Made by a program: the position numbers and the translations under genes. 64,000 nt of DNA from contig NZ_CP071444.1 of NCBI RefSeq assembly GCF_017352215.1, positions 2,232,001 to 2,296,000 of the forward strand, given 5' to 3'. Positions 30,993 to 52,263 of this stretch are shown here, piece by piece. The stretch comes from Alkalibacter rhizosphaerae (GTDB lineage Bacteria; Bacillota; Clostridia; Eubacteriales; Alkalibacteraceae). Position 1 is the first letter of the stretch. Every line of letters starts with the position of its first letter. The notes under the pieces are model-generated. The model was not told the DNA's origin. It made no database searches and saw nothing but the letters and a program-made list of their open reading frames with translations.

Positions 30993-31044
30993 TTCATTTG
31001 ATTGGTTGTCAAAATAAGCTTGAATGTTAAAGGGAGGTAAAAAA

Positions 31045-32937
31045 ATGAGTCATGAAGTCTTGGAATTCGACGTGGTAAGCGCGAGCTTGACGGAAAAAGC
31101 AAAAACAGATGGAGCAGAACTGATTTGGGACAGACAGCAGGCCATGAAGGCCAAATGTGGTTTTGGAGACAAGGGGTTATGCTGCAGGATCTGTGCCATG
31201 GGACCATGCCGTATCAGTCCGGTGGAAGGTAAAGGCGCCCAAAGAGGTCTTTGTGGAGCGACTGCCGATGTCATCGTATCCAGAAACTTTGCAAGAATGG
31301 TAGCAGCAGGAACCTCTGCCCACTCCGATCATGCAAGAGAGATCGCCACCGTCATGCACATGTCCAACAAAGATGGAAACTACAAGGTAAAAGATGTAGG
31401 CAAACTGTTGAACCTGGCAAAAGAATGGGGAGTAGAAACAGAAGGTCGCGAAAACGACGATATCGCCCATGAAGTGGCAGAAATTGCACTCAATGAATTC
31501 GGAAAGCCTTTTGGGACCCAACGGTTCATCACAAGAGCTCCTGAACCCAGACAAAAGTTGTGGAAAGAAAAGAACTTCGAGCCGAGAGCCATTGACCGGG
31601 AAGTAGTTACTTTGATGCACTCCACTCACATTGGCTGTACCGGTGATGCGGACAGCATGCTGGAAATGTCCATGAGAACATCCTTGGCAGACGGCTGGGG
31701 CGGATCCATGATCGGAACGGAACTTAGTGACATCATGTTTGGAACTCCCACAGCAAGAGGAACGGAAGCGAATCTTGGCGTTATCGAAGAAAACATGGTA
31801 AATATATTGCTACACGGTCACAACCCCAGTTTTTCTGAAATGGTCGTGTTGGCGGCAGAAGAACCGGAAATGATCGCTATGGCGAAAGAAGTCGGAGCAG
31901 ATGGCATCAATCTGGTCGGCATGTGCTGTACCGGTAACGAAGTGACCATGCGACACGGTGTAAAAATTGCAGGAAACTTCTATCAGCAGGAACTGGCAGT
32001 GTTGACTGGCGCCATGGAAGCCGTCATTGTAGATGTTCAGTGCATCTTCCCGGCATTGGCAAGATTGTCCGACTGCTATCACACCAAGTTTATCACCACT
32101 TCACCTAAAGCAAAAATCACAGGCAGTACTTACATAGAATTCAGCGAAGAACATGCTTTGGAATCCACAAAAACCATCGTGCGGGAAGCGATCATGAACT
32201 ACGCGAACAGAGATCGATCCAAAGTGTTGATCCCCCAAGCGAAGAGCAAGGCATTGGTAGGCTACAGCGTAGAAACGGTCATTCAGCATCTGGACAAGGT
32301 CGTAAACAGTCATACTGATGTATTCAATACTGTAAAACCTTTGTCGGATGTTATCTGGGCCGGCGTACTTCGTGGAGCTGCAGGGATCGTTGGCTGCAAC
32401 AATCCGCAAGTCAAGCACGACAAGAGCCATGTCACCATCATGAAAGAACTGATCAAAAACGACGTCATCGTTGTTACGACAGGATGTGCCGCCCAGGCAG
32501 CTGCCAAAGCAGGCCTGATGACCATGGAAGCAAAAGAACTTTGCGGACGAGGACTCAAGGAAGTTTGCGAACGTGTCGGCATTCCGCCGGTGCTTCACAT
32601 GGGATCTTGTGTAGACATCTCCAGAATCTTGGATATCGTAGGACGTGTAGCGATAGAGAGAGGCTTGGACAATTCGGATCTGCCGGTCGTTGGTGTAGCA
32701 CCGGAGTGGATGAGTGAAAAAGCCGTAGCCATTGGAACTTATGTTGTTACTTCCGGTATCGACACCTACTTGGGAGTTACGCCGCAAGTTTTGGGTTCCG
32801 AACATTTTACGGACATGTTGACCAACACCATCGAAGAAAAAGTCGGCGCGAGATTTACGTTTGAAGAAGATCCTGTCGTATGTGCACAATTGATTTTGGA
32901 TCGTATGGAAGAAAAAAGAGACAGATTGGGAATATAG
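31045..32937 (+). CDS. cooS: Carbon monoxide dehydrogenase catalytic subunit
   Basis: This 630-residue Ni-Fe-S enzyme interconverts CO2 and CO for acetyl-CoA synthesis. The N-terminal cysteines Cys38, Cys46, Cys47, Cys50 and Cys55 (CGFGDKGLCCRICAMGPC) supply the D and B iron-sulfur clusters. Downstream His and Cys residues (for example HNPSFSEM, GMCCTGNE, NNPQVKHD, TTGCAAQ and HMGSCVD) fit the C-cluster environment. Length matches CooS-type subunits and is somewhat shorter than the Moorella AcsA I recall. ATG 31045 follows AGGGAGG, with an in-frame ATG at 31024 lacking a site. It is first in an operon headed by the palindromic operator. Confidence 0.96.
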   Translation: MSHEVLEFDVVSASLTEKAKTDGAELIWDRQQAMKAKCGFGDKGLCCRICAMGPCRISPVEGKGAQRGLCGATADVIVSRNFARMVAAGTSAHSDHAREIATVMHMSNKDGNYKVKDVGKLLNLAKEWGVETEGRENDDIAHEVAEIALNEFGKPFGTQRFITRAPEPRQKLWKEKNFEPRAIDREVVTLMHSTHIGCTGDADSMLEMSMRTSLADGWGGSMIGTELSDIMFGTPTARGTEANLGVIEENMVNILLHGHNPSFSEMVVLAAEEPEMIAMAKEVGADGINLVGMCCTGNEVTMRHGVKIAGNFYQQELAVLTGAMEAVIVDVQCIFPALARLSDCYHTKFITTSPKAKITGSTYIEFSEEHALESTKTIVREAIMNYANRDRSKVLIPQAKSKALVGYSVETVIQHLDKVVNSHTDVFNTVKPLSDVIWAGVLRGAAGIVGCNNPQVKHDKSHVTIMKELIKNDVIVVTTGCAAQAAAKAGLMTMEAKELCGRGLKEVCERVGIPPVLHMGSCVDISRILDIVGRVAIERGLDNSDLPVVGVAPEWMSEKAVAIGTYVVTSGIDTYLGVTPQVLGSEHFTDMLTNTIEEKVGARFTFEEDPVVCAQLILDRMEEKRDRLGI

Positions 32938-32945: not shown

Positions 32946-33734
32946 ATGAAAATTGCGATCACTGGAAAAGGCGGCGTGGGGAAATCGACGATCTCGGCAG
33001 CACTTTCAAGGTATTTTGCAGAGAACGGCTACCGGGTCCTGGCAGTAGATGCCGATCCGGATGCCAATCTGGCACTTGCTTTGGGAATGGACGTCAAGCT
33101 GGCGGAGAAGATCATCCCCATATCGGAAATGAATGGCTTGGTGGAGGAACGGACGGGAGCAAAACCGGGGACTTTTGGGACAACATTTAAAATGAATCCA
33201 AAAGTGGACGATATCCCCGAGCGTTACGCACATGATTTTGAAGGCATCAAAGTCCTGGTCATGGGCAGCGTAGACGTCGGTGGTTCCGGATGTGTTTGTG
33301 CAGAACATGTATTGCTTCGGCGGCTGACATCCCACTTGATCCTACGGGAGAAGGATGTAGTGATCATGGACATGGAGGCCGGCATCGAACATTTGGGACG
33401 AGGGACTGCAGATTCAGTAGACGCATTCATCACCGTAGTAGAACCGGGCGAACGGAGCGTTCAAACGTTCAAGACGGTAAAGAAACTATCCGCAGATTTG
33501 GGCGTGAAAAACGTCATGGTGATCGGCAACAAGTTGAATGACAAGGAAGATGAAGATTTCATCAAACGTCAGGTTGGAGAAGAAAATTGCTTGGGATTTA
33601 TCTACTATGATAAAACCATCAGCGTTTCCGACCGGGAAAACACGTCATCTTATCTGGCCAGTGAAAGCTTGAAAAAGAACATCGAAGAAATTGCGGAAAA
33701 ACTGATCGGAAATGTTAAAAATAAGGAAAAGTAG
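32946..33734 (+). CDS. cooC: CODH nickel-insertion accessory ATPase CooC
   Basis: This 262-residue MinD-type ATPase supports nickel insertion into the CODH C-cluster. It has the deviant Walker A GKGGVGKST (residues 7-15), a VDADPDANLALALGM motif (about 38-52) and the nickel-binding CxC pair Cys116/Cys118 (GSGCVCAEH), the hallmark of CooC. MDMEAGIEHLGRG is the Walker B region. It starts 8 nt after cooS, so the two are co-transcribed. A related but distinct ATPase lies at 36090. Confidence 0.93.
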   Translation: MKIAITGKGGVGKSTISAALSRYFAENGYRVLAVDADPDANLALALGMDVKLAEKIIPISEMNGLVEERTGAKPGTFGTTFKMNPKVDDIPERYAHDFEGIKVLVMGSVDVGGSGCVCAEHVLLRRLTSHLILREKDVVIMDMEAGIEHLGRGTADSVDAFITVVEPGERSVQTFKTVKKLSADLGVKNVMVIGNKLNDKEDEDFIKRQVGEENCLGFIYYDKTISVSDRENTSSYLASESLKKNIEEIAEKLIGNVKNKEK

Positions 33735-33751: not shown

Positions 33752-35878
33752 ATGAATCTGTTTAAGATTATCTACTCCGGTAAGGATCAATACCTGGACT
33801 TGGCGGAAAACATGGTAAAGAAGGTCATTGAGGAAAAAGGGAAAGATGCACCGGTGAAATTCCCATCCACTGCATATGCGCTTCCTGTGATTTACGCCAT
33901 AACAGGGGAGAAAATAACGACTACAGGCGAATTGGAAAAGGCTTTGGACCTGGCCAAGGGATTTATTCATGAGGGGAACAGACTTCAAAATGCATTGGAT
34001 GCAGGAACTGCATCAGCCATGTTGGCGGAAATCATCGAGGCAGTAAAATATACGCTGGATGATGAACCTTACAAGGCACCATTGCAGGGACATTTGACCG
34101 ATGCACAGATCCGAGCATTTGGTGTACCGTTGGTAACTCAGGACATTCCAGGTGTTGCCGTTATTATCGGTAAATGCAAAGACTCTAAAACAGCGGCTGA
34201 CATCATTAAAGAGTATCAGGAAAAAGGGCTGTTGACTTTCCTGGTAGGTGAAGTCATCGATCAGGCGATCGAAGAAAATGTAAAAATGGGCATCGACCTT
34301 CGAGTCATTTCCCTGGGATATGAGATCGAGTCGGTCATTCACGTAGTTTCAGTAGCAATCAGAGCCAGTTTGATTTTTGGGGCTGTGGAACCGGGCGATT
34401 TCGAAGCTCACAAAGCATACACAAAAAATCGTGTGAAAGCATTCGTCAATGTATTTGATGATTGGGACGATAAGATCATTGCAGCTGGAGCAGCAGCCAT
34501 TGAACTGGGATTCCCGGCAGTTACAGAAACCTTTATTAATGAAGTGCCGACCCTGTTGTTGCATCAACCGGACAACAGCAAGGTGATCGAAACATCCTTG
34601 GAAGTACGCAACATCAAGATCAAAGTAACCAAGATCGACATTCCTGTTGGTGTAGCCTCTGCCTTCGAGGGTGAACGAATTCGCAAGAACGACATGTATG
34701 CTGAATTTGGCGGAAGTAAAACCAAAGCTTGGGAATTGGTTCGCATGAAAGATATGGCCAGCATCGAAGATGGCAAAATCGAGTTGGTCGGACCGGATAT
34801 CGATACCGCAGACAAGGTACCGTATAATCTACCATTTGCTGTCGTGGTCGATGTGGCCGGTAAAAGCATGGAAGAAGACTTTGAACCAGTTTTGGAGAGA
34901 AGATTGCACTACTTCATGAACTACATTGAAGGCGTTATGCATATTGGACAGCGCAACATTGCCTGGATCCGTGTAGGCAAGGAATCTTTTGAACGAGGTC
35001 TGCGACTGAAGGATATCGGAAAAGTTATTTATGCAAAGATGAAGGCGGAATTTGATACAGTAGTAGACAAGTGTCAAGTGACCATTTATACAGATAAGGC
35101 TCAAGTCGAACAACTGGAGCAAGAGTTGGCGTTCCCGAAATATCGGGCCAGAGACGAGAGATTGGCAACCCTTATTGACGAAAATGTAGATACTTTCTAT
35201 TCTTGTACACTTTGCCAGTCCTTTGCACCGGCTCACGTGTGCATCGTAACTCCGGAGAGACTTGGTCTTTGTGGTGCGGTCAGCTGGCTGGATGCAAAAG
35301 CCACCAAAGAATTGGATCCTACGGGAGCTTGTCAACCAGTACCCAAAGACGGCGTGGAAGACGAAGAAAAAGGAATCTGGACGGAAGTCAGCAAGGCAGT
35401 AGATGTTGCTTCTCAGGGAGCAGTATCCAGAGTGTCCTTGTACAGCATCATGGAAGATCCAATGACTTCATGCGGATGCTTCGAGTGTATCTGCGGAATC
35501 ATGCCGGAAGCAAACGGAGTGGTTATCGTCAACCGTGAGTTTGGGGATATCACACCAGTTGGAATGACTTTCGGAGATCTGGCTTCCATGACAGGCGGTG
35601 GAGTCCAAACTCCTGGTTTCATGGGTCACGGAAGACACTTTATTGGATCGAAAAAATTCATGAGTGCAGAAGGCGGCTTGGCCAGAATCGTATGGATGCC
35701 TAAAGAATTGAAGGACGATGTTCGAGACCGATTGGATGCAGCTGCAAAAGAGATGTATGGCATCGATGGATTCACCGATATGATCTGTGATGAGACCATT
35801 GCCAGCGAATCGGAAACCGTGTTGGAATTCCTGGAATCCAAAGGACATCCGGCATTGACCTTAGATCCAATCATGTAA
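33752..35878 (+). CDS. acsB: Acetyl-CoA synthase (CO-methylating), copy 1
   Basis: This 708-residue enzyme joins CO, a methyl group from the corrinoid protein and CoA at the A-cluster. Cys485, Cys488, Cys497 and Cys507 should hold the [4Fe-4S] cubane, and Cys574-Gly575-Cys576 (SCGCFEC) the distal nickel. These are exactly 21 positions earlier than the Moorella residues 506/509/518/528 and 595-597, so the protein lacks only about 21 N-terminal residues relative to that homologue. Conserved flanks include PERLGLCGAVSWLDAKA and GFMGHGRHF. It is third in the operon behind cooC. A second copy of equal length lies at 40162. Confidence 0.96.
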   Translation: MNLFKIIYSGKDQYLDLAENMVKKVIEEKGKDAPVKFPSTAYALPVIYAITGEKITTTGELEKALDLAKGFIHEGNRLQNALDAGTASAMLAEIIEAVKYTLDDEPYKAPLQGHLTDAQIRAFGVPLVTQDIPGVAVIIGKCKDSKTAADIIKEYQEKGLLTFLVGEVIDQAIEENVKMGIDLRVISLGYEIESVIHVVSVAIRASLIFGAVEPGDFEAHKAYTKNRVKAFVNVFDDWDDKIIAAGAAAIELGFPAVTETFINEVPTLLLHQPDNSKVIETSLEVRNIKIKVTKIDIPVGVASAFEGERIRKNDMYAEFGGSKTKAWELVRMKDMASIEDGKIELVGPDIDTADKVPYNLPFAVVVDVAGKSMEEDFEPVLERRLHYFMNYIEGVMHIGQRNIAWIRVGKESFERGLRLKDIGKVIYAKMKAEFDTVVDKCQVTIYTDKAQVEQLEQELAFPKYRARDERLATLIDENVDTFYSCTLCQSFAPAHVCIVTPERLGLCGAVSWLDAKATKELDPTGACQPVPKDGVEDEEKGIWTEVSKAVDVASQGAVSRVSLYSIMEDPMTSCGCFECICGIMPEANGVVIVNREFGDITPVGMTFGDLASMTGGGVQTPGFMGHGRHFIGSKKFMSAEGGLARIVWMPKELKDDVRDRLDAAAKEMYGIDGFTDMICDETIASESETVLEFLESKGHPALTLDPIM

Positions 35879-35890
35879 TAACGTATTATT

Positions 35891-35916
35891 GGGGCCGGTG
35901 CGATCGCACCGTCCCC
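35891..35916 (+). promoter_or_regulatory. GC-rich hairpin between acsB and acsF
   Basis: GGGGCCGGTGC and GCACCGTCCCC pair around a GATC loop. There is no T tract, so it is more likely an mRNA 3'-end stabiliser or pause than a terminator. The rest of the 211-nt gap is AT-rich, and a TAAAAT at 36050 may be a weak internal -10 box. Confidence 0.6.
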
Positions 35917-36089
35917 ATAATCAATTCATTATCTGAGTAAATCATAGATCCACTGGTTAATCACCTGGCTCAGAATGGCTTGAAATACAAAAAATCTTTC
36001 ATGGAGTAACAATTCGCCATAAAATTTTCTAATATGAGACAAAAGATGATAAAATGTAATTGTTACGACATGATCGAGGAGGTAGAAAA

Positions 36090-36863
36090 ATGAGCTATAG
36101 AAGAATTGCTGTTGCAGGCAAAGGAGGAACCGGTAAAACCAGTTTGACCGGTATGCTGATCGATTTTCTCATACAAGCTGGCAAAGGTCCCGTATTGGCT
36201 GTAGATGCAGATCCCAATTCCAATTTGAACGAAGTGTTGGGAATGGAAGCAGACGAGACCATTGGCGACGTTCGGGAGCAGGTGAACTGGGCGGAACGGG
36301 AAGGCAACGTGATCCCCGGCGGTATGTCCAAAACGGATTTTTTCAAGTTGCGCCTCAACCAGGCGGTCTTGGAAGGGGACGGATACGACATGTTGGTCAT
36401 GGGGAGAAGTCAGGGAGAAGGATGCTATTGCTATGTCAATGGTATTCTCAAAAATCAACTGGAGATCCTCAGCGACAATTATAACCATGTAATCATCGAC
36501 AACGAAGCTGGATTAGAACATTTGAGTAGAGGATCCATGGGAAAAATCGACTTGCTGCTGTTGATCAGCGATTATTCCCATCGAAGCATCCAGGCGGCAG
36601 GACGGGTAAAAGTCTTGGCAGAAGAATTGAAAATGAACATTCCCAAAATGGGGCTGATCGTCAACAAGGCACCGGAAGGCAAGCTGACGGAATCCATACT
36701 GGAAGAGATCCAACGACAGGAGTTGGAATTGATCGGCGTGATCCCATTGGACTCCAATGTATTTGATTATGATTCGACAGGCAAACCATTAGTGCAATTA
36801 CCGGAGGACAGCCCGGCGAAAGTTGCGTTGAAGGATATTATGAAAAAACTACAAATTATTTAA
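36090..36863 (+). CDS. acsF: AcsF-type ATPase for acetyl-CoA synthase maturation
   Basis: This 257-residue MinD/CooC-superfamily ATPase has Walker A GKGGTGKTS (residues 10-18), VDADPNSNLNEVLGM (about 41-55) and a CYC pair, Cys112 and Cys114, in EGCYCYVNG. AcsF proteins are implicated in nickel activation of ACS, as CooC is for CODH. Its place between acsB and acsD supports AcsF over a second CooC, though the two are close relatives. ATG 36090 follows GAGGAGGTAG. A TTG-started acsD follows 13 nt later. Confidence 0.85.
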   Translation: MSYRRIAVAGKGGTGKTSLTGMLIDFLIQAGKGPVLAVDADPNSNLNEVLGMEADETIGDVREQVNWAEREGNVIPGGMSKTDFFKLRLNQAVLEGDGYDMLVMGRSQGEGCYCYVNGILKNQLEILSDNYNHVIIDNEAGLEHLSRGSMGKIDLLLLISDYSHRSIQAAGRVKVLAEELKMNIPKMGLIVNKAPEGKLTESILEEIQRQELELIGVIPLDSNVFDYDSTGKPLVQLPEDSPAKVALKDIMKKLQII

Positions 36864-36876
36864 GGAGGGACTACTC

Positions 36877-37821
36877 TTGGGTTACAAGAAAACGAGCAAG
36901 AAGTACAACGGAACCATCAAGAAAGTATCACTTGGAACTGGTGACAAAGCATTTGAAGTTGGTGGTAGAAACGCCATGCCTTTCTACAAGTTTGATGGGG
37001 ACATTGGTGAAAAACCAAAAGTCGGTATCGAGATCATGGATGAGGCACCAGCAACTTGGTCCCAAGCTTTTGCAGAATTATATAAGGAAGCGGGAGATGA
37101 TACTGCTGCCTGGGCAAAACTTGTAGAAGAGAAATATGCTCCCGATTTCATTTGTTTGCGTTTTGAAGGCGCCGATCCCAATGGTAAAAACAAAAGCACG
37201 GACGAATGTGTTGAAATCGCCAAGAAAGTGGCAGAAGCCATTACCGTACCCCTGGTTGTTGCCGGTTCGAAAAATGACGAAAAAGATGCAGAGTTGTTCC
37301 AAAAGGTATCAGAAGGACTGGAAGGCAAAAACATTCTGTTGCTTTCCGCAAAAGAAGAAAACTATAAAACGGTTGGTGCCGCAGGCGCGTTGGCTTACAA
37401 TCAAAAGGTTGGAGCTGAATCTTCCGTAGACATCAACCTGGCAAAACAGTTGAACATTCTCATGGGCCAACTTGGTGTAAAAAAAGAATCGACCATTATG
37501 GATGTGGGTTGCGCTGCTGCCGGATATGGATATGAATATGTTTCCTCCACCATGGATCGTATTTTGCTGGCTTCTTTGGGTCAAAACGATGAAACCCTTC
37601 AAATGCCGATCATCACACCGGTTGCATTCGATGTATGGGCCGTAAAAGAAGCTGTTGCATCGGAAGAAGATGAACCGACTTGGGGAGACGTGACGGAACG
37701 TGGTATTCACATGGAGGTGTCTACTGCAACTGCATGTTTGGTTTCCGGATCAGACATGGTGATCGTGCGACATCCGAAATCTTTGGAGACGGTGAAAAAC
37801 TTCATCAACGCATTGGCGTAA
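36877..37821 (+). CDS. acsD: Corrinoid iron-sulfur protein, small subunit
   Basis: This 314-residue TIM-barrel subunit pairs with AcsC and shapes the corrinoid pocket. Typical segments are VSLGTGDKAFEVGGRNAMPFYKFDG near the N-terminus, DFICLRFEGADPNGKNKS near 90 and MDVGCAAAGYGYEYVSSTMDRI near 210. The start is TTG at 36877 with a strong AAGGAGGGA site 6 nt upstream. It is co-transcribed with acsF and acsC. No Fe-S motif is expected in this subunit and none is seen. Confidence 0.95.
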   Translation: MGYKKTSKKYNGTIKKVSLGTGDKAFEVGGRNAMPFYKFDGDIGEKPKVGIEIMDEAPATWSQAFAELYKEAGDDTAAWAKLVEEKYAPDFICLRFEGADPNGKNKSTDECVEIAKKVAEAITVPLVVAGSKNDEKDAELFQKVSEGLEGKNILLLSAKEENYKTVGAAGALAYNQKVGAESSVDINLAKQLNILMGQLGVKKESTIMDVGCAAAGYGYEYVSSTMDRILLASLGQNDETLQMPIITPVAFDVWAVKEAVASEEDEPTWGDVTERGIHMEVSTATACLVSGSDMVIVRHPKSLETVKNFINALA

Positions 37822-37851
37822 AAACAATAATAAAACGGAGGTTGATATAAA

Positions 37852-39192
37852 ATGGGTTTGACCGGACTGGAAATTTTTAAACTTACACCTAGAACAAATT
37901 GCAAGGAATGCGGATTCCCTACTTGCATGGCTTTCAGCATGAAAGTGGCATCTGGCGCTGTCGAAATAGAAAAATGTCCGTACATTTCAGACGAAGCAAA
38001 AGAAAAATTGTCGGATGCAACAGCTCCGCCGATGAAAACTTTTGTCATAGGCAAAGGAGAAGCAGAAAGAAAAATCGGAGGGGAAACCGTTTTGTATCGC
38101 CATGAAAAAACATTGGTGAACAAGCCGGTTGTTGCAATTGGATTTGATGATACCATGGACGATGCTGTTGTCGATGGAAAAATTGCAAATATCAAAAAAG
38201 TGGATTATGAGCGCATCGGCGAGCAAATGAATGCAGAAGCGGTCCTGGTAAAATGCGTTGAGAACAAGGAAGCTTTTTTGGCCTTGATCGACAAGTTGTC
38301 GCCCTTGAACAAGGTCGTGTTGATCCAAACAAAGGATGCAGATATAGCCAAGGAAGCTTTGGAAAAAGTAAAAGACACCAACCCGGTCCTTTTAGGGGCG
38401 AACAAGGACAACATTGACGGTTTTGTCGAATTGGCAAAAGCATATAAGATCGCATTGGGTCTGGAAGCAGACACACTGGAAAACTTGTACGACTTGGTCC
38501 AAGTAGCTGAAAAAGCGGGTCACAAGGAATTGATCCTCAACACGACAGGGAAAAACGCTGGGGAAGCTTTTGAATCTACCGTGGAAGTACGACGTGCTGC
38601 GATAACCGGAGGCGACCGAACTTTTGGATATCCATCCATCGTCATGGTCAACGAGATCGCAGGTGGAGATGCTTATATGGAAACGGCACTGGCTTCTGCG
38701 TTTGTTCTAAGGTATGGTTCCATTATCGTTCTTAGCGATCTTGAATACAGCAAAGCTTTGCCGCTGTTTGGGTTGCGCCAGAACATCTATACGGATCCGC
38801 AAAAACCGATGCGTGTAGAACCAAAAGTATACAATTTCGGATCACCAAAAGAAGATTCTCCAGTATTGTTGACAGTAGACTTTGCTTTGACATACTTCGT
38901 AGTATCCGGTGAGATCGATCGTTCAAAAGCTCCGGCATATCTTTTGATCCCTGATGCAGGCGGGTACTCAGTTCTGACATCCTGGGCAGCAGGCAAATTG
39001 GGTGGAAGCGTCATCCGCAATGCCGTCAAAGAAAGTGGCTTGGAAGAAAAATTGACCAAAAAACGTTTAGTGCTCCCTGGCAAGGTAGCTGTACTTAAAG
39101 GGGATGTGGAAGAAGAGCTTCCAGGTTGGGAAATCATCGTCGGACCGGACGAAGCAATGCAAATTCCCAAGTTTTTGAAAGAATTGGCATAA
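37852..39192 (+). CDS. acsC: Corrinoid iron-sulfur protein, large subunit
   Basis: This 446-residue subunit binds the cobamide that carries the methyl group from AcsE to AcsB. The N-terminal [4Fe-4S] motif uses Cys17, Cys20, Cys25 and Cys42 (TNCKECGFPTC...EKCPY), the same numbering as in characterised homologues. A TIM-barrel domain and a C-terminal B12-binding domain follow (including DAGGYSVLTSWAAGKLGG near 365). The cluster reduces the inactive Co(II) form. It lies 30 nt behind acsD and is separated from acsE by a 102-nt gap with a stable hairpin. Confidence 0.96.
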   Translation: MGLTGLEIFKLTPRTNCKECGFPTCMAFSMKVASGAVEIEKCPYISDEAKEKLSDATAPPMKTFVIGKGEAERKIGGETVLYRHEKTLVNKPVVAIGFDDTMDDAVVDGKIANIKKVDYERIGEQMNAEAVLVKCVENKEAFLALIDKLSPLNKVVLIQTKDADIAKEALEKVKDTNPVLLGANKDNIDGFVELAKAYKIALGLEADTLENLYDLVQVAEKAGHKELILNTTGKNAGEAFESTVEVRRAAITGGDRTFGYPSIVMVNEIAGGDAYMETALASAFVLRYGSIIVLSDLEYSKALPLFGLRQNIYTDPQKPMRVEPKVYNFGSPKEDSPVLLTVDFALTYFVVSGEIDRSKAPAYLLIPDAGGYSVLTSWAAGKLGGSVIRNAVKESGLEEKLTKKRLVLPGKVAVLKGDVEEELPGWEIIVGPDEAMQIPKFLKELA

Positions 39193-39226
39193 GACATACA
39201 ACCAGCTGTATTTGAATGCAAAACAA

Positions 39227-39259
39227 CCGGCGCAACAAACCAGAGGATTGTTGCGCCGG
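39227..39259 (+). promoter_or_regulatory. Stable hairpin between acsC and acsE
   Basis: The CCGGCGCAACAA / TTGTTGCGCCGG arms form a perfect 12-bp stem with a 9-nt loop. GGTATG, not a T run, follows. It could protect the upstream mRNA from 3' exonucleases or act as a partial terminator. Confidence 0.65.
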
Positions 39260-39294
39260 GGTATGTACAAAATAAAAGAAACGGGGTTAAAATC

Positions 39295-40080
39295 ATGGAT
39301 AAATTTATGGTAATCGGAGAAAGAATCCACTGTATCTCACCAGCAATTCGAAATGCGATCGCAGATCGGGACTTGGAGCCCATTTTCAAAAGAGCGAAAG
39401 AACAACTGGATGCAGGTGCCCATTATCTTGATGTCAATATTGGACCGGCAGAAAAAGATGGAGAAGAAGTTATGCAGTGGATCGTGCAAGCTATCCAAAG
39501 TGAATTCGACAACGTACCATTGGTTTTGGATACGGCAAATAAGAAAGCCATCGAAGCAGGAATAAAAGTATACGATCGATCCAAAGGCAAGCCCATTGTC
39601 AACTCTGCAGATGCAGGAGACAGAATCGACAACATCAACTTGGCAGCTGCAAATGATGCCATGACCATTGCACTTTGTGCGAAAGATGGAATCCCTAGAG
39701 ACAACGACGAGCGGATGATGTTTTGCCAAGAAATGCTGGAAAGAGGAATGGAAGCTGGAATGGATCCGGAAGACATGTTGTTCGATCCATTGTTCCTTGT
39801 AATCAAAGGAATGCAGGAGAAGCAAGTGGAAGTGCTGGAAGCCATCCAAATGATTTCCGAGATGGGATTAAAATCCACAGGTGGATTGAGCAATGTATCC
39901 AACGGAGCACCAAAAGCGCTTCGACCGACCATGGATTCTGTTATGGTGGCCATGTCCATTCAATGTGGTCTGACTTCCGCCATCGTAAACCCATGTGACA
40001 AAATCTTGATGGATACCATTAAAACTTGCGACATCATCCTGGGTAAAACCCTGTATGCCGATTCCTATTTAGAGCTGTAA
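39295..40080 (+). CDS. acsE: Methyltetrahydrofolate:corrinoid/iron-sulfur protein methyltransferase
   Basis: This 261-residue TIM-barrel enzyme of the dihydropteroate-synthase-like superfamily moves the methyl group from methyl-THF to the cobamide of AcsCD. Family features: VIGERIHCISPAIRNAI at the start, AHYLDVNIGPAEKDGEE (about 42-58), IVNSADAGDRIDNINLAA (near 100) and GGLSNVSNGAPKALRPTMD (near 198), with Asn199 in the region that contacts the pterin. It is the link between the methyl and carbonyl branches. The gene is followed by a possible -10 box (TATAAT 40112-40117) before the second acsB. Confidence 0.95.
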   Translation: MDKFMVIGERIHCISPAIRNAIADRDLEPIFKRAKEQLDAGAHYLDVNIGPAEKDGEEVMQWIVQAIQSEFDNVPLVLDTANKKAIEAGIKVYDRSKGKPIVNSADAGDRIDNINLAAANDAMTIALCAKDGIPRDNDERMMFCQEMLERGMEAGMDPEDMLFDPLFLVIKGMQEKQVEVLEAIQMISEMGLKSTGGLSNVSNGAPKALRPTMDSVMVAMSIQCGLTSAIVNPCDKILMDTIKTCDIILGKTLYADSYLEL

Positions 40081-40161
40081 AAAAGATTGTGCATGAGCTC
40101 CTGTTTAGCGTTATAATATAGGTAAGATAATATTATAACATTTCCATGAAGGAGGATAATG

Positions 40162-42288
40162 ATGAGTTTGTTTGATTTGATTTACGCTGGATCCAACGCA
40201 GCATGGGGGTTGGCGGAACAAACGGTGGCAGATGCGATCCAACAAAAGGGAAAAGATCAAAAGGTAGCATTTCCTTCCACGGCTTATTCTTTACCGGTGA
40301 TCTATTCAGCAACTGGAATGAAAATCAACACATTGGGCGATTTGGAAACTGCATTGGGCGTGGCAAAAAGTCTGATCGTAGAAGAGGAAGATCTGGGCAA
40401 AGCATTGAATGCCGGATTGTCTACTGCTGTTTCTGCAGAGATCATTGAAAGTGTAAAGTATGCACTGCAGGAAGATCCTTATGAGGATGAACCGGGTATT
40501 GGATTTGTACCGGATCCAGTCATCCGTTCCCTGGGAGTTCCCCTGGTTACAGGAGATATCCCGGGTATTGCTGTCCTTTTAGGGGAAAGCGAAAGCCCGG
40601 AAGAACTTGCTGCCATCGTTAAGGACTATCAATCCAAAGGATTGCTTACATTTCTCGTAGGCAAAACCATTGACCAGGCCATGGAGCAAGACGTGAAACT
40701 TGGTTTGGAAATGAGGGTCATACCGATCGGTTATGATGTGACGTCGGTCATTCACGTTGTTTCAGTGGCAGTTCGTGCTGCACTGATTTTCGGCGCGTTG
40801 AAACCTGGAGATCTTGCCGGTTTGTTGGAATATACAAAACAACGTGTTCCGGCTTTTGTCAACACATTTGGTCCCCTCAACGAAGTGGTCGTTTCTGCAG
40901 GAGCTGGAGCCATAGCATTGGGATTCCCTGTTATTGCGGATATTGATGTACCGGAAGTTCCAGGTGCTTTATTGACACAAAAAGATCGAAGCTTGACGGT
41001 AAAAACATCCCTGGAAACTCGGGAAATCAAGATAAAAGTAAAAGAGATCGATATCCCTGTAGCATTTGCTGCAGCTTTTGAAGGGGAGAGGATCCGTAAA
41101 GATGCTGTCTATGCGGAGTTCGGCAGCAAGCGAAGCAAGGCGTGGGAGCTGGTCGTCATGAAGACGCCGGATGAAATCGAGGATCATCAAATCACCTTGA
41201 CCGGACCGGACATTGACGAGACGGACCCACCGGTTTATCTGCCGCTGGGCATCGTTGTAGAAGTTGCAGGAAAAAATATGGAGGAAGACTTTGAGCCGGT
41301 ATTGGAACGAAGACTTCATTACTTCATCAACTACATCGAAGGGATCATGCATATAGGACAGCGAAACATCGCTTGGATCCGAATCAGCAAGGATGCTTTC
41401 GAAAAAGGATTTCGCCTGAAGCATTTTGGAGAAGTTTTATATGCCATGATGCACGAAGAATTTGGTACAGTCGTTGATAAATGTGCTGTACATATCTACA
41501 CGGACTTGTCCAAGGTAGAGGAGTTGGAGGAGTCTCTGGCTTTTCCAAGATATCGAAAAAGAGATGAACGTCTTGCTTCCTTGACGGATGAAAGCGTGGA
41601 TACCTTCTACACCTGTTTGCTTTGCCAGTCCTTTGCACCTGCCCATGTATGTGTTGTAACCCCGGAAAGACTGGGACTTTGTGGAGCAGTGAGCTGGCTG
41701 GATGCAAAGGCAACGAAGGAATTGGATCCAACAGGTGCTTGCCAGCCGGTATCGAAAGAAGGCTTGGAAGACGAAACGAAGGGTATTTGGAGTGAAGTCA
41801 ACAAAGCTGTAGATACGGCTTCACAGGGCTCTGTATCCAGGGTTTCCCTGTATAGTATTTTGGAAGATCCAATGACCTCTTGTGGCTGTTTTGAATGCAT
41901 CTGCGGTATTGTACCGGAAGCCAACGGCGTTGTCATCGTAAATCGTGAGTTTGGCGCCACTACTCCAGTCGGAATGACTTTTGGAGAACTGGCATCCATG
42001 ACCGGTGGAGGGGTACAAACTCCAGGTTTCATGGGACACGGACGACACTTTATAGCTTCCAAGAAATTTATGGCTGCTGAAGGCGGGATCGGACGAATCA
42101 TCTGGATGCCAAAAGAGCTGAAAGACGACGTTCGAGATCGTTTGAACAAAACGGCAAAAGAATTGTATGATATCGACAACTTTACAGACATGATATGCGA
42201 TGAGACCATTGCGACAGACGTAGAGGATGTGATCCAATTCTTAAGCGAAGTTGGACATCCGGCTTTGGATCAAGATCCAATAATGTAG
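40162..42288 (+). CDS. acsB: Acetyl-CoA synthase, copy 2
   Basis: This second acetyl-CoA synthase has 708 residues if ATG 40162 is used. An adjacent ATG at 40159 is only 3 nt from the GGAGG site, and 40162 gives the same length and MxLF start as copy 1. A-cluster residues occur at identical positions: Cys485, Cys488, Cys497, Cys507 and Cys574-Gly-Cys576. The last 230 residues differ from copy 1 at few positions, whereas the first 300, the domain that contacts CODH in the Moorella complex, differ much more. It is therefore active-looking and not a pseudogene. A TATAAT at 40112 suggests possible independent transcription. Confidence 0.95.
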   Translation: MSLFDLIYAGSNAAWGLAEQTVADAIQQKGKDQKVAFPSTAYSLPVIYSATGMKINTLGDLETALGVAKSLIVEEEDLGKALNAGLSTAVSAEIIESVKYALQEDPYEDEPGIGFVPDPVIRSLGVPLVTGDIPGIAVLLGESESPEELAAIVKDYQSKGLLTFLVGKTIDQAMEQDVKLGLEMRVIPIGYDVTSVIHVVSVAVRAALIFGALKPGDLAGLLEYTKQRVPAFVNTFGPLNEVVVSAGAGAIALGFPVIADIDVPEVPGALLTQKDRSLTVKTSLETREIKIKVKEIDIPVAFAAAFEGERIRKDAVYAEFGSKRSKAWELVVMKTPDEIEDHQITLTGPDIDETDPPVYLPLGIVVEVAGKNMEEDFEPVLERRLHYFINYIEGIMHIGQRNIAWIRISKDAFEKGFRLKHFGEVLYAMMHEEFGTVVDKCAVHIYTDLSKVEELEESLAFPRYRKRDERLASLTDESVDTFYTCLLCQSFAPAHVCVVTPERLGLCGAVSWLDAKATKELDPTGACQPVSKEGLEDETKGIWSEVNKAVDTASQGSVSRVSLYSILEDPMTSCGCFECICGIVPEANGVVIVNREFGATTPVGMTFGELASMTGGGVQTPGFMGHGRHFIASKKFMAAEGGIGRIIWMPKELKDDVRDRLNKTAKELYDIDNFTDMICDETIATDVEDVIQFLSEVGHPALDQDPIM

Positions 42289-42377: not shown

Positions 42378-44306
42378 ATGTTGAACATCACTGTGATATT
42401 AGAAAACGGAGATACCAAAACCATTCAAGGGACTTTCGGCGACAATTTGTTGGATGTTTTGCGAGACAATGGGATTGGAGTGTATGCACCATGTAATGGC
42501 AATGGTACTTGTGGGAAGTGCATCGTTCAAGTAAAAGAAGGATCCTTGCGAAAAGAAACCATGGGTGAATTGTCGAAAGAACGGCAGGATAAAGGATTTG
42601 TTCTTTCATGCATGTCCTATTTGATGGAAGACATCACTATTGCCATTCCAGATTCAAGCTTGGTAGGTGCTGCAAAAATCAAAACGGCAGAAAGAAACAA
42701 AAAAAATCGGGAGAAATATGAAAAACTCCGGTCCCGATTTGCAGCCCTTCATGGAGAGGTGGCTCACATTCACAAACTCACCATTCAACTGCCGGAAGCA
42801 ACGTTGGATGACAATGTATCGGATCATGATCGACTGAAACGGGAAATTCGGGTTCAACTGGGTTATACAAAAGTAAAAATGAGTCTGAATCTATTAAAAA
42901 AACTTCCCTTTGCATTAAGAAAAAATCATTTTAAAATTACATTGTTTTATACCGTCACCAATGAGAGAAGCATACGAATTCGACATATCACCTGGGACGA
43001 AAATGAGAAAGCCTACGGAGTAGCTTTTGATATCGGGACCACATCGGTTGCAGCATGTCTGGTCGAGTTGGAAACGGGAAGGATCCTTCGTGAAATCAGT
43101 AGTGCCAATGCTCAATTAAAATATGGGGCCGATGTGATCAATCGGATCATCTATGCCACAAAAGGGGATGGCTTGAAAAAACTTCGGGATGCCATCATAT
43201 ATGAAAGCATCAACCCTTTGATCAATGAATTGATCGGAAAGGCAAAAATCGAGTCGGAAAGAATTTTGATCATGAGCGTGTCGGCCAATACAACCATGAC
43301 CCATCTTTTTCTGGGCATTTATCCGGATTACCTGCGTAGAGAACCATATATTCCAGTTATTACCGATACCAGGCAGGTAACGGTATTCCCATGGGAAATG
43401 GAATTGATGGTAAATCAAAATGCCGTGGTGATCATAAGCCCCAGTGTGGCCAGCTATGTCGGAGGAGATATTTCTGCTGGCGTCATTGCTGCAGAAATGC
43501 GGGATTCGGATACCCTGACAGCGCTGATCGATCTTGGCACCAATGGTGAGATCGTTTTTGGCAACAATGAATTTTTAATGACCTGCGCCTGTTCCGCAGG
43601 ACCCGCTTTTGAAGGTGGAGAAATAAGTTGCGGCATGCGCGCCTCCTTGGGGGCGATCGAAGGTGTGGAAATCGAAGACGAAACCTTCCAGCCGATCTTG
43701 CGGGTCATTGACACACATCGACCGTACGGTATATGCGGCTCCGGGATCATCGATTTGATCTCCGAACTAAAACGAACGAATCTGATCAATGCAAAAGGCA
43801 AATTCAACCGGGATGAACCATGCGAGAGAGTGCTTTATGACGAGTATGATATCGGACGCTATGTTTTGGCAAAAGAAGGGGAGTTCGACAACGACGAAGA
43901 AGTTGCGGTGACGGAGATCGACATCGATAATTTCATTCGCGCCAAAGGTGCCATTTATTCTGCACTGCATACTCTGCTGGAAAGTTTGGGTTTTGCACCG
44001 GACGATCTGGAAAAAATTAAGATTTCCGGTGGGATCGGAAGCCACATCGGGATCGAGAATGCCATCAACATCGGAATATTTCCGGATATTCCTTTGGAGA
44101 AATACGAGTTTATCGGAAATAGCTCCTTGTCCGGAAGTTATTTGAGTCTGGTCAATAAAAAAGCGGCAGAGTATATCGACAACTCTGCTTACAACATGAC
44201 GTACGTGGAGTTGAGCGTTTATTCGGGATATATGGATGAGTTTATCTCCGCCTGTTTTATACCTCATACAGACTTGAACCGATTTCCAAATCATGGAAAA
44301 AGGTAA
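42378..44306 (+). CDS. acsV: Corrinoid-protein reductive activator (RACo), ASKHA family
   Basis: This 642-residue protein reduces inactive Co(II) in the corrinoid iron-sulfur protein using ATP. A plant-type [2Fe-2S] domain at the N-terminus has Cys39, Cys45, Cys48 and Cys78 (APCNGNGTCGKC...LSCMS). A linker of about 110 residues precedes the ASKHA nucleotide-binding core (DUF4445) with AFDIGTTSVAACLVELETG (near 215) and LIDLGTNGEIVFGN (near 390). Its place as last gene of the acs operon identifies AcsCD as partner. ATG 42378 follows AAGGAGAA, with an upstream in-frame ATG lacking support. A second, shorter ASKHA protein lies at 49444. Confidence 0.93.
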   Translation: MLNITVILENGDTKTIQGTFGDNLLDVLRDNGIGVYAPCNGNGTCGKCIVQVKEGSLRKETMGELSKERQDKGFVLSCMSYLMEDITIAIPDSSLVGAAKIKTAERNKKNREKYEKLRSRFAALHGEVAHIHKLTIQLPEATLDDNVSDHDRLKREIRVQLGYTKVKMSLNLLKKLPFALRKNHFKITLFYTVTNERSIRIRHITWDENEKAYGVAFDIGTTSVAACLVELETGRILREISSANAQLKYGADVINRIIYATKGDGLKKLRDAIIYESINPLINELIGKAKIESERILIMSVSANTTMTHLFLGIYPDYLRREPYIPVITDTRQVTVFPWEMELMVNQNAVVIISPSVASYVGGDISAGVIAAEMRDSDTLTALIDLGTNGEIVFGNNEFLMTCACSAGPAFEGGEISCGMRASLGAIEGVEIEDETFQPILRVIDTHRPYGICGSGIIDLISELKRTNLINAKGKFNRDEPCERVLYDEYDIGRYVLAKEGEFDNDEEVAVTEIDIDNFIRAKGAIYSALHTLLESLGFAPDDLEKIKISGGIGSHIGIENAINIGIFPDIPLEKYEFIGNSSLSGSYLSLVNKKAAEYIDNSAYNMTYVELSVYSGYMDEFISACFIPHTDLNRFPNHGKR

Positions 44307-45229: not shown

Positions 45230-45868
45230 ATGATCGATTTGAAAGCAGTAACCACGGCAATTGGTGAATTGGAAGAAGAAAAAGTATTGGAAATGCTGAA
45301 TGATTTCGTCGCAAGTGAACCATCTGAAGAAGAAGCCCAAAAGGTAGTTCAAGCATGCCAAGAAGGAATGGCCATGGTTGGAGATCTCTTTGAGAGTGGC
45401 GAATACTTTGTAGGTGATTTGATTTTTGCCGGAGAATTGTTGACGGAAGCAATCGATGTATTGAAACCTGTAATCGGATCAGGAACAACGACAAAAGTTG
45501 GATCCATTATTGTGGGAACGGTTCATGGAGATTTGCATGATATTGGTAAAAATATATTCAAAAGCATGGCAGAAGCTGCAGGATTTGAAGTTTATGATCT
45601 AGGCATCGACCAGCCTGTTCAAGCATTTGTTGACAAAGTAAAAGAAGTAAAACCGAACATCGTTGGGATGAGCGGCGTTTTGACGTTGGCATTGGAATCC
45701 ATGAAAGATACCGTAGATGCCCTGAAAGAAGCAGGCGTTCGTGACTCCGTCAAAATCATTATTGGTGGAAACCCTGTAACCAAAGAAGCTTGCGAGCACA
45801 TTGGAGCAGATGCTTTCACAACAAATGCGGCGGAAGGTGTAAAAACCATCCAGGCATGGGTCAAATAA
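45230..45868 (+). CDS. Corrinoid protein of a methyltransferase system, copy 2
   Basis: This 212-residue protein has the same layout as the one at 95-733: a helical cap (about 1-85) and a B12-binding domain with DLHDIG at residues 101-106 (cobalt ligand His103), VGMSGVLTLAL near 144 and IIGGNPVT near 178. It stands alone between its own operator-bearing promoter and a strong terminator. The partner methyltransferases must therefore be encoded elsewhere. The DHPS-like enzyme at 51449, which shares the operator, is a candidate for the folate side. The methyl donor is unknown. Confidence 0.9.
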   Translation: MIDLKAVTTAIGELEEEKVLEMLNDFVASEPSEEEAQKVVQACQEGMAMVGDLFESGEYFVGDLIFAGELLTEAIDVLKPVIGSGTTTKVGSIIVGTVHGDLHDIGKNIFKSMAEAAGFEVYDLGIDQPVQAFVDKVKEVKPNIVGMSGVLTLALESMKDTVDALKEAGVRDSVKIIIGGNPVTKEACEHIGADAFTTNAAEGVKTIQAWVK

Positions 45869-45890
45869 TCGAATCATACGATAGAACAGA

Positions 45891-45929
45891 AAAGCTCAGG
45901 AGGGAGGTTATTCCTCTCTCCTGAGCTTT
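45891..45929. terminator. Bidirectional terminator, corrinoid protein / GNAT genes
   Basis: AAAGCTCAGGAGGGAGG pairs with CCTCTCTCCTGAGCTTT (one G-T wobble) around a 5-nt loop. The loop contains the stop codon of the convergent GNAT gene. Confidence 0.88.
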
Positions 45930-47035
45930 TTTATATAGCATCTTCTTCTACGGTTCTGCTTGACTGTGTAGTTTTTCCATTGGGACTGAACCGGTGTGTT
46001 GTTTTCCAGTTGAGGATTCAAATCGGCTTTTTGGATCTTCATGGGGTTGTCCAAAACGATTTGATTTAGGAGAATGGCGTTGACCCCTTTGCCTTGGTAA
46101 GCCGGGTCCACCCCGATCAAAAGCAGCTCAGCCCGATCGTTTTTCCGCAAAGCACCCAGGATGGATAAAAAACCAATTGGAAACAATCGCCCCCTGTTCT
46201 TCTGCATGGCTTTGGACAAGGAAGGCAACGCCAACCCAAAAGCGACCAGGTCATCGTTCTCATTGAGGATCAATTTTACGAAGTCCACGGAAAATAATGC
46301 AATGTACTGTTTTGTGAAATATTCGATCTGTTTTTTTGACAATTCTGTAACAGCGTACAGGTGGTCGTAACTTCGATTGATCAAATCAAAGATAGCAGGA
46401 ATGTATGGTATGAGATCTTTTTTGCGATTGATGTCTGGAATATATAACCGATATTTTTTCATAGCCCACTGTGCCAGTTTCTTTACAGTGGGAGGTACTT
46501 CTTTTGGTACTGTCAACTCATATTCCAACCAATCCACATCTTTCACGTAGCCAAGGTTCTTCATGAATTCTGGGTAGTATGGGTGATTGTACGTGGTCGT
46601 GAATGTTGAAATTTGACCGAATCCTTCCACCAACATGCCTTCCGGGTCCAAATCACAAAAACCAAGAGGACCGTGGATGTGAGACATTCCATTTGCCAAC
46701 AGCCAGGATTCAGCAGTTTGAAACAAAGCTTGGGCGACAGATCCATCGTCGATAAAATCCACATAACCGAATCGACCGTACGGGCGTTTCCATTTCTCAA
46801 TATAAGATTTATTGATGATGGCAGCGATTCGACCTACGATGCGATCGTCCTTGTATGCCAGCCAGTATTTTGCGTCGCAATGATCAAATGCCGGATTGAT
46901 GTCTTCGCGCAAAGTGTGATATTCATCGATAAAAAGTTTTGGAACATAGTACGGATCCTTTGCGTATAAATAAACGGGAAATCGTACAAATTTTTTTAGT
47001 AGAGAGCGATTCGAGACTTCTACGATCGTAATCAT
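45908..47035 (-). CDS. GNAT-fold N-acetyltransferase-like protein
   Basis: This 375-residue protein begins ITIVEVSNRSLLKKFVRFPVYLYAKDPYYVPKL, the typical start of a long GNAT-like family found in many bacteria. An AYKDDRIVGRIAAIINKSY strand (near 60-78) and, in the C-terminal half, LLIGVDPAYQGKGVNAILLNQIV (near 310-332) carry the acetyl-CoA-binding signature QGKGVN. The substrate is unknown. I choose ATG 47035 with a GAGGTAG site. The frame is open to 47161, but that would run into the divergent ilvB promoter. Confidence 0.78.
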   Translation of the reverse strand: MITIVEVSNRSLLKKFVRFPVYLYAKDPYYVPKLFIDEYHTLREDINPAFDHCDAKYWLAYKDDRIVGRIAAIINKSYIEKWKRPYGRFGYVDFIDDGSVAQALFQTAESWLLANGMSHIHGPLGFCDLDPEGMLVEGFGQISTFTTTYNHPYYPEFMKNLGYVKDVDWLEYELTVPKEVPPTVKKLAQWAMKKYRLYIPDINRKKDLIPYIPAIFDLINRSYDHLYAVTELSKKQIEYFTKQYIALFSVDFVKLILNENDDLVAFGLALPSLSKAMQKNRGRLFPIGFLSILGALRKNDRAELLLIGVDPAYQGKGVNAILLNQIVLDNPMKIQKADLNPQLENNTPVQSQWKNYTVKQNRRRRCYIKKLRREE

Positions 47036-47142
47036 GGCTACCTCACAAGTTGTTTTAACGTCGACCTTTTTATTATATACAAATATTTTTAATATATCAA
47101 TATAAGACAAACAATACAAGCGTACTAAAAGGTCGAAAAAGA

Positions 47143-52261: not shown

Positions 52262-52263
52262 TA

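Follow-up and report, generated by a model that had tools for sequence, protein, structure and literature searches.

Two acetyl-CoA synthases with a similar catalytic part and divergent N-terminal domains in one operon of Alkalibacter rhizosphaerae

Acetyl-CoA synthase (ACS) catalyses the step that defines the Wood-Ljungdahl pathway, and the contribution of its N-terminal domain beyond docking (CO retention, CO inhibition and CoFeSP handover) is under active study. The class 1 enzymes of Moorella and Carboxydothermus (1oao, 7zkj and 1ru3) have their A-cluster ligands, CO alcove and two tunnel alanines in common with the two AcsB proteins described here, whereas K150, M151 and W154 of the class 1 gating helix are P, L and Q/G in our proteins. 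Their CODH also carries terminal extensions and another interface, unlike the CODH encoded at our locus (PMC11474084, available text). The class 2 C. autoethanogenum CODH/ACS (6ytt, 6yua and 9fzy-9g03) is the best match for both AcsB proteins and for CooS, and its ACS has the same three-domain layout.

Duplication of acsB is already published. In Acetobacterium bakii (L041), which has the same pair of N-domain types (types 1 and 2 below) as our locus, and in strains ES2 and ES3, where it lies in or near the cluster, the additional acsB is described in the available text as an extra copy alone (PMC6239172; PMC10625859). The Haloacetibacter carboxydivorans MD4 operon has the gene order of our locus, including a pair of ACS genes that are both transcribed on CO, and the available text of its description passes over the two copies without comment (PMC12835891). 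Lachnospiraceae TWA4 (L099; PMC4275979) has one acsB after cooS-cooC and the other after acsE, as here, but the rest of the protein has diverged too (59%), with no homogenisation. In the Acetobacterium loci examined, unlike at ours, the type 2 gene is not placed behind acsE but sits downstream of acsB1 or alone at a remote site, and the two copies have a homogenised catalytic part. The remote type 2 gene of Acetobacterium woodii lies next to an activator of the V4R/sigma-54 kind. Within the literature searched, no report of domain-restricted divergence of acsB copies was found.

The operon and its two ACS genes

The window is the whole 64,000-nucleotide stretch of A. rhizosphaerae DNA that was analysed. 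The features discussed are as follows.

31024..32937, + strand: cooS/acsA, CODH catalytic subunit (TIGR01702, 668 bits; closest PDB chain C. autoethanogenum CODH 6ytt_B, 895 bits)
32946..33734, + strand: cooC-type ATPase between cooS and acsB1 (ORF; start inferred at MKIAITGKGG)
33752..35878, + strand: acsB1, acetyl-CoA synthase with type 1 N-domain, 708 aa (ORF, domain profiles, N-part tree)
33752..34636, + strand: AcsB1 residues 1-295, type 1 docking/gating domain (54.2% identity to AcsB2)
36090..36863, + strand: second cooC/acsF-type ATPase (ORF; longer TTG start at 36060)
36877..37821, + strand: acsD, CoFeSP small subunit (ORF, neighbourhoods)
37852..39192, + strand: acsC, CoFeSP large subunit (ORF, neighbourhoods)
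39295..40080, + strand: acsE, methyl-THF:CoFeSP methyltransferase (ORF, neighbourhoods)
40162..42288, + strand: acsB2, acetyl-CoA synthase with type 2 N-domain, 708 aa (ORF, domain profiles, N-part tree)
40162..41049, + strand: AcsB2 residues 1-296, type 2 N-domain, nearer the single-copy Clostridium enzymes (invariant residues, 6yua match)
42378..44306, + strand: acsV, corrinoid activation protein (ORF, neighbourhoods)

The mechanical ORF of acsB2 starts one ATG upstream, at 40159, and the CooS structure-match query began at 31048, 8 residues inside the ORF start. The ATPase at 32946..33734 we take to be cooC-type from its P-loop sequence and position; that at 36090..36863 is presumably cooC/acsF-type, and acsD, acsC, acsE and acsV carry the names that we assume from position and family knowledge. 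The position of the second ATPase is kept in many of the gene neighbourhoods compared. In these comparisons the ATPase following cooS was recognised via the cooC2 query, and the AcsB results are independent of cooC1. The acsB1 gene lies within a cooS-cooC-acsB1 module and acsB2 lies downstream of acsD-acsC-acsE. The cooS gene is the sole full-length copy found in the genome, the other TIGR01702 match being a partial, sub-cut-off one of 27 bits in a 555-aa frame. Scanning of the operon gave 25 promoter-like sites versus a shuffle mean of 22.8, which is near chance, and 18 terminator-like sites versus a mean of 12.7 (sd 3.9), with no + strand terminator-like site between acsB1 and the next gene.

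Domain-wise divergence of AcsB1 and AcsB2

As the initial annotation had stated, both proteins have 708 residues, and the ORFs and their alignment place C485, C488, C497, C507 and C574-G-C576, which we take to be A-cluster ligands, at identical positions in the two copies. Relative to AcsB1, AcsB2 has an extra residue near position 110 that is offset by a deletion near 355, and the CODH_A_N, CdhC and ACS_CODH_B_C profiles all scored over cut-off in both copies. The two proteins are 67% identical overall, and calculation by domain showed that this identity is not uniform: 54.2% for residues 1-295, 68.3% for 296-479 and 83.4% for 480-708. The far greater divergence that had been assigned to the N-terminal 300 residues was thus borne out, and the C-terminal domain is indeed the most alike part, although at 83.4% the earlier wording, nearly the same, was a little strong.

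As a baseline we used 486 within-type ortholog pairs of AcsB, and in none of these did N-domain identity fall to 56% or below. Eighty-six ortholog pairs lie within 2 points of the window pair over residues 296-708; none of them has an equally low N-domain value, the minimum being 62.2%. The N-domain divergence of AcsB1 and AcsB2 is not an ordinary rate gradient. Synonymous sites of the window pair are saturated (pS 0.70-0.90) and hence its dN/dS is uninformative; the identity step along the gene is gradual (345-487).

The AcsB1 N-domain evolved fast and that of AcsB2 is the more ordinary one. The AcsB2 N-domain keeps 116 of the 126 residues that are invariant in 12 single-copy genomes and the AcsB1 N-domain keeps 105. 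The latter is 58.4% identical to the single-copy genomes, which are 74.6% identical among themselves; the window AcsC is likewise divergent (59.1%, versus 71.9%). The CO alcove, formed in Moorella by G145, I146, V149, F229 and F512 (PMC11321310), is kept as G124, V125 (I to V), V128, F209 and F491 in AcsB1, with identical letters in AcsB2. Single-chain structure models of the two copies gave mean pLDDT values of 76 and 77, with good N-domains; as the A-cluster domain was poorly modelled, they were used for fold and domain boundary alone. Superposition of the predicted N-domains on 6yua_A gave 0.9 and 0.8 Å.

N-domain types and homogenisation in related families

Two N-domain types are present across Alkalibacteraceae and Eubacteriaceae, and the remainder of AcsB follows a different tree. 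In the N-part tree, type 1 and type 2 each form a single clade (100/100 and 100/99), whereas in the rest-of-protein tree supported branches force each of five type changes. Over this remainder, AU tests rejected monophyly of type 1 (dlnL 267, p 8e-46) and of type 2 (dlnL 276, p 2.6e-6). For the N part, they rejected the Eubacteriaceae types as one clade (dlnL 149, p 4e-5) and, weakly, a single origin for the two types inside these families (p 0.044). With L115 (G004) left out, 22 of the 295 N-part residues are type-fixed (at least 85% of each type), as against none of the remaining 413; over all rows with it included the counts are 24 and 0, and the family type-fixed counts are 15 / 4 / 1 with L115 and 37 / 4 / 1 without it. 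In the gating region (117-135) type-fixed residues showed no significant enrichment in any of three groups (p 0.2, 0.21 and 1). The type tracks gene position, type 1 following cooS-cooC and type 2 following acsE or, in Acetobacterium, following acsB1 or standing alone. Type 2 is missing in 9 of the 27 type 1 genomes of the two families, and among the 50 genomes of the order searched no genome of these families had type 2 without type 1.

The rest of AcsB has a separate history and was repeatedly homogenised between copies in sister lineages, and both types are conserved. Acetobacterium paralogs have been homogenised over residues ~300-708 with their N-domains kept apart, and so, separately, have the paralogs of three Lachnospiraceae-like tandem pairs. 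In both, the part trees are discordant and the identity break includes synonymous sites, as partial gene conversion would give. The break falls at residues 279-305 in 11 of the 13 non-window pairs fitted (28 listed) and coincides with the domain boundary (6yua ends at 309 and 3git begins at 288), where homogenisation mostly halts. Recent gene conversion in the window pair was rejected because third positions are diverged gene-wide and the tree of the rest of the protein keeps the two Alkalibacteraceae copies as distinct groups; conversion is not required to account for this pair.

A second copy might merely add ACS, the N-domain difference being drift in a tolerant domain, which would suit the nine genomes in which type 1 alone suffices and the suggestion that acsB duplication is an adaptive trait in related strains (PMC10625859, available text). 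We consider this unlikely: in the 12 single-copy genomes (all 12 checked, including Clostridium ragsdalei, have a single AcsB) the N-domain is conserved to much the same degree as the remainder (74.6% versus 73.8 and 79.1%), within-type dN/dS of the N-domain is 0.01-0.05 in the four Acetobacterium comparisons, and both the 22 type-fixed residues and the usual end of homogenisation at the domain boundary speak against drift. The disagreement of the two trees would also be expected had one N-domain been acquired from outside by recombination, the duplicate being a transferred chimera and not a diverged copy. Transfer does occur, since Parasporobacterium (L036) has one type 1 copy beside another that groups with Lachnospiraceae. 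Such an origin nevertheless seems very improbable, for G004 at the base of type 1 has an intermediate N-domain (70% to window type 1 and 62% to window type 2), as stepwise divergence would give, and no outside donor nearer type 1 was present among the 128 matches listed.

Natural pairs with a shared catalytic part and different N-domains are ready-made N-domain exchange experiments, and as the same pattern occurs in relatives, the role of the domain is testable. To gas-fermentation engineers such pairs show which part evolution varies, and full-length acsB trees, which mix two histories, should be used with caution as acetogen markers.

The CODH partner and possible roles of the two isoforms

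The window CODH is C. autoethanogenum-like (895 bits, versus 496 bits to Moorella). Query residues 7-629 match positions 8-631 of C. autoethanogenum CODH (631 aa), with no Moorella-type terminal extensions, and the ORF extends the query by 8 N-terminal residues; in the 674-aa Moorella chain the match spans 36-658. Since the C. autoethanogenum-type interface differs from that of Moorella (PMC11474084, available text), the Moorella contact surface, which the initial annotation had taken as guide, is inapplicable. The C. autoethanogenum N-domain, solved on its CODH (6yua), matches AcsB2 at 423 bits (66% identity) and AcsB1 at 369 bits (58%).

A difference in partner between the copies, as had been proposed, agrees with the concentration of divergence in the CODH-docking/CO-channel domain, the conservation of each type and module position. 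It agrees also with MD4 transcript counts on CO, which pair CODH with AcsB1 (250 and 260) and AcsB2 with AcsC (79 and 80), these being raw and noisy counts (SD 160 and 30) from a different genus (PMC12835891, Table 2, available text). That partner need not be CODH, because the N-domain also gates CO and has been modelled touching CoFeSP (PMC12289521, available text). The narrower proposal, one copy in a CODH complex and the other on free CO, fared less well. AcsB1 could be CODH-bound and AcsB2 CODH-free, acting on dissolved CO or mainly with CoFeSP, in the manner of the monomeric Carboxydothermus ACS. One CooS over cut-off accompanies two AcsB proteins in the window genome, G003, G016, G007 and G018, acsB2 is grouped with acsDCE and equals acsC in MD4 transcripts, and ACS can take CO from solution (PMC12289521, available text). 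Monomeric ACS exists (1ru3), and as the solved Carboxydothermus ACS structures include the monomer as well as the complex (titles of 1ru3, 7nyp and 7zkj), sequence cannot decide between the two states. We regard this division of labour as rather doubtful: both alcoves are kept and the single CODH is of the kind to whose docked N-domain AcsB2 is nearer, AcsB2 keeps more of the single-copy-invariant residues, and the pattern recurs in Lachnospiraceae-like pairs whose two copies both lie immediately downstream of cooS-cooC. Moreover, the occurrence of type 2 does not match the ability to grow on CO: the genomes of two CO-growers, Alkalibacter mobilis and Eubacterium callanderi, lack it, and Acetobacterium woodii, for which CO alone does not support growth, has it.

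On balance, we think it slightly more likely than not that AcsB1 and AcsB2 are isoforms that can both work with CODH and diverge in how they dock or gate CO, with AcsB1 the main one. One type of catalytic module (~296-708, with the A-cluster) and one CODH would then serve two separate N-terminal docking/CO-gating domains, and selection would preserve equal chemistry but unlike CO-delivery domains. AcsB1 would be the CODH-stoichiometric form; in A. woodii, acsA and the cluster acsB are translated at similar levels (PMC8407422, available text). AcsB2 may be an auxiliary form that can likewise dock to this CODH, in complexes of its own or in mixed ones, and whose gating, CO retention or CoFeSP handover differs so as to fit other conditions. 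More speculatively, and with little confidence, the ACS N-domain could be an exchangeable module, in an arrangement that arose at least twice and in which selection holds two docking/gating versions separate and gene conversion keeps the catalytic module shared; the isoforms might even share a CODH homodimer, one side using CODH-made CO and the other solution CO or serving methyl handover.

A tie of type 2 to a second CODH was rejected, as a single CooS over cut-off accompanies the two types in G000, G003 and G016. With acsE or acsC taken into account, CooS distances in 10 genomes correlated weakly and alike with the N-domains of both types (partial r 0.10-0.24) and more strongly with the rest of AcsB (0.38-0.64).

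The two acsB genes against an ortholog baseline

The genome is a single contig of 2.45 Mb, of which the window is one stretch, and the whole of it carries two AcsB genes versus one full CODH catalytic gene. The operon order is cooS - cooC - acsB1 - cooC - acsD - acsC - acsE - acsB2 - acsV with every gene on the + strand, and the acetyl-CoA synthase (ACS) genes are:

33752-35878, + strand, AcsB1
40162-42288, + strand, AcsB2

As the initial annotation had stated, the proteins are of equal length (each 708 aa), and their cluster ligands all fall at the same aligned positions. The residues that PMC11321310 and PMC12289521 assign to the alcove are identical letters in both, and window AcsB1 is 94% identical to AcsB1 of Alkalibacter mobilis (G002, same genus). 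The further claim that the N-terminal part is far more divergent than the A-cluster domain was borne out, identity between the two being 54.2% over residues 1-295 (the N-domain), 68.3% over 296-479 (middle) and 83.4% over 480-708 (A-cluster domain). This comparison requires as its control the divergence of N-domain versus rest among ordinary orthologs. In a single-copy reference of 12 genomes (one AcsB match in 12/12) mean identities over the same segments were 74.6%, 73.8% and 79.1%, and thus the N-domain is not inherently fast. None of 486 within-type ortholog pairs matched the N-domain divergence of the window pair, and the lowest N-domain identity among 86 ortholog pairs of matched rest-of-protein identity was 62.2%. 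Relative to the single-copy genomes, the fast-evolving N-domain is that of AcsB1 (58.4% identity, versus 67.5% for the AcsB2 N-domain and 66.3% for CooS); window AcsC (59.1%) and AcsD (60.1%) are rather divergent too.

Two N-domain types and the history of the rest of the protein

Separate trees for the N part and the rest were built from at least 149 full-length AcsB proteins in loci (127 distinct) plus one outgroup. The first trees (128-row and 49-row sets) were cut at residue 310 and the 35-row trees and AU tests at residue 295; the 35-row set omits, among others, loci L115 (genome G004) and L036 (Parasporobacterium), both of which are in the 49-row tree. In the 35-row N-part tree one clade (type 1, 100/100) unites the Alkalibacteraceae and Eubacteriaceae copies that follow cooS-cooC, and a second (type 2, 100/99) unites the remaining copies, found after acsE or, in Acetobacterium, after acsB1 or alone. 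In the 35-row rest tree, well-supported branches force five changes per type label, and a single origin of a type was seen in 0 of 200 bootstrap trees. By AU test, keeping type 1 or type 2 as a single clade in the rest costs 267 or 276 log units, respectively, and the penalty for uniting the Eubacteriaceae types in the N part is 149. In the rest tree the two Alkalibacteraceae copies remain apart as distinct groups.

Type-fixed residues, defined as present in at least 85% of the rows of each type (19 and 15 rows), number 22 among the 295 N-part positions versus 0 among the 413 of the rest (24 versus 0 with L115); as the types were defined on the N part, the count of 22 is partly by construction, whereas the count of 0 is not. 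The strict count is 25 versus 1 within Eubacteriaceae, and in Alkalibacteraceae the strictly copy-fixed residues of the N, middle and C segments number 37, 4 and 1 (15, 4 and 1 counting L115).

Relatives of the window genome show gene conversion. The 12 within-genome Acetobacterium pairs are 51-54% identical in the N-domain versus 82-96% in the rest, and in genome G049 the synonymous difference (pS) falls from 0.71 in the N part to 0.36 and 0.29 in the other parts. A two-part fit, obtained for 13 of 28 non-window pairs that are mutually non-independent, placed the break between residues 279 and 305 for 11 of them and at 366 and 362 for the others. Residues 279-305 are the linker from the N-terminal to the middle domain (the solved N-domain 6yua spans 1-309 and the truncated enzyme 3git starts at 288). 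In the window pair the break is blurred (345-487), showing that this pair has had no recent exchange. The parsimonious scenario would have one duplication in the ancestor of Alkalibacteraceae and Eubacteriaceae; the type 1 N-domain would have diverged fast, type 1 sequence would have replaced the rest of type 2 in Eubacteriaceae, and additional local exchanges would have taken place. By the N-part data, an older N-domain split is weakly favoured (p 0.044).

The single acsB of L115 (9109-11232; G004, same family as the window) lies after cooS, and its N-domain is intermediate between the two types, at the base of type 1, possibly a relic of early divergence. In L036 (1506-3629 and 10001-12124; Parasporobacterium paucivorans) a type 1 acsB close to those of Alkalibacteraceae accompanies a second acsB of the Lachnospiraceae kind; neighbourhoods and tree suggest that the cooS-cooC-acsB1 module was likely acquired by horizontal transfer.

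Distribution, growth on CO and isoform function

An order-wide search covered 50 genomes at least 90% complete and gave an N-domain match in 34, type 1 being assigned at >=59% to AcsB1 (G004 included) and type 2 at >=66% to AcsB2. In Alkalibacteraceae and Eubacteriaceae, type 1 is present in 27 genomes, 18 with type 2 also and 9 without, and in the same search no genome of these families had type 2 alone. Class-wide, ACS was found in 26 of 393 genomes, with two or more full copies in 11 of the 26.

A. mobilis and the Eubacterium group are among the genomes that have type 1 without type 2, and hence type 1 must be functional with CODH. Growth on CO is reported for A. mobilis (PMC12835891) and E. 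callanderi KIST612 (PMC10625859; the genome searched here is strain FD, G033, whose coordinates agree with L047), whereas A. woodii is reported not to grow with CO as sole substrate (PMC10625859). The A. woodii genome is G008, its acsB1 starting at 1245585 in agreement with Table A2 of PMC6925170. As these CO-growers have type 1 only and A. woodii has type 2, the occurrence of type 2 does not match the ability to grow on CO. In Haloacetibacter carboxydivorans MD4 on CO, reported transcript counts (x1000) are 250 +/- 130 for CODH and 260 +/- 160 for AcsB1, and 79 +/- 30 for AcsB2 and 80 +/- 30 for AcsC (PMC12835891); by counts AcsB1 pairs with CODH and AcsB2 with the corrinoid protein, and both are well transcribed.

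The ACS N-domain is described as remaining CODH-bound during swings of the other two domains, as containing a helix that opens and closes the CO tunnel and, in a model, as lying against the CoFeSP beta subunit; ACS lacking it is reportedly free of CO inhibition (PMC12289521). C. autoethanogenum CODH holds the N-domain by another surface than does Moorella CODH (PMC11474084), and the window CODH is of the C. autoethanogenum kind, not the Moorella kind. Two N-domains on a shared catalytic module would accordingly be expected to differ in docking, in how CO is retained or gated, or in methyl handover rather than in chemistry. It is possible, as the initial annotation proposed, that one copy works on free CO. 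Most likely, AcsB1 and AcsB2 are two isoforms that would both be CODH-competent, since the AcsB2 N-domain is the more standard and type 1 serves alone elsewhere.

Other acsB pairs, published duplications and neighbouring features

In the Lachnospiraceae-like loci L091, L103 and L132, tandem acsB genes follow cooS-cooC, with identities of 58-65% in the N-domain and 88-90% beyond it. In the rest tree the two L103 copies pair with each other (100/100), as do those of L132 (100/99), with the L091 pair lacking resolved placement. In the N tree each L091 copy joins its counterpart from L103 (99/97 and 98/94), and one L132 copy lies beside the second of these groups (88/97), the other being unplaced. 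These pairs are a second, separate case of a diverged N-domain with a homogenised rest. Two-copy L081, L083, L085, L092, L099, G007 and G018 gave no trace of homogenisation, their paralogs having diverged to 59-64% in the rest, and the pattern among acsB pairs is frequent, not universal. The copies of genome G038 (L122:8772-10916 and L121:4737-6857) resemble each other only in the final segment (87% in C, against 47-50% in N and middle), exchange apparently being confined to the A-cluster domain.

Type-fixed residues cluster at 234-268 (13/37 in Alkalibacteraceae and 8/25 in Eubacteriaceae, the data from which the region was picked), and the Lachnospiraceae-like pairs have 4/8 within it (p 0.008). 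Ala268 of C. hydrogenoformans ACS presumably lines the tunnel. Its aligned position is included in the region, and it is the target of a solved variant (8cjb, by title).

Duplication of acsB is already known, having been reported in TWA4 in 2014 (PMC4275979), in A. bakii in 2018 (PMC6239172) and in ES strains in 2023, there termed not previously reported (PMC10625859), and two acsB of MD4 are entered in Table 2 of a 2026 paper (PMC12835891). Among the matches listed in the open-licence PMC literature on acsB paralogs, duplication, gene conversion, concerted evolution or domain swap, none reports the domain-restricted pattern by title or abstract.

A remote type 2 acsB adjoins a V4R-domain sigma-54 activator gene in Acetobacterium, A. 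woodii (G008) included (L079:7855-9789 and L126:8438-10384), which suggests that a ligand induces it, perhaps a phenolic compound or a methoxylated aromatic. Other features of the window, ORF names being from reading and RNAs from Rfam, are:

45230-45868, corrinoid-protein-like ORF, downstream of the operon
49444-51225, second AcsV-like ORF, downstream of the operon
51449-52261, methyltransferase-like ORF, downstream of the operon
52289-52382, THF riboswitch, downstream of the operon
59372-59539, Cobalamin riboswitch
27068-27245, 6S RNA

The ORFs and THF riboswitch of 45230-52382 are probably a methyl-group utilisation locus.
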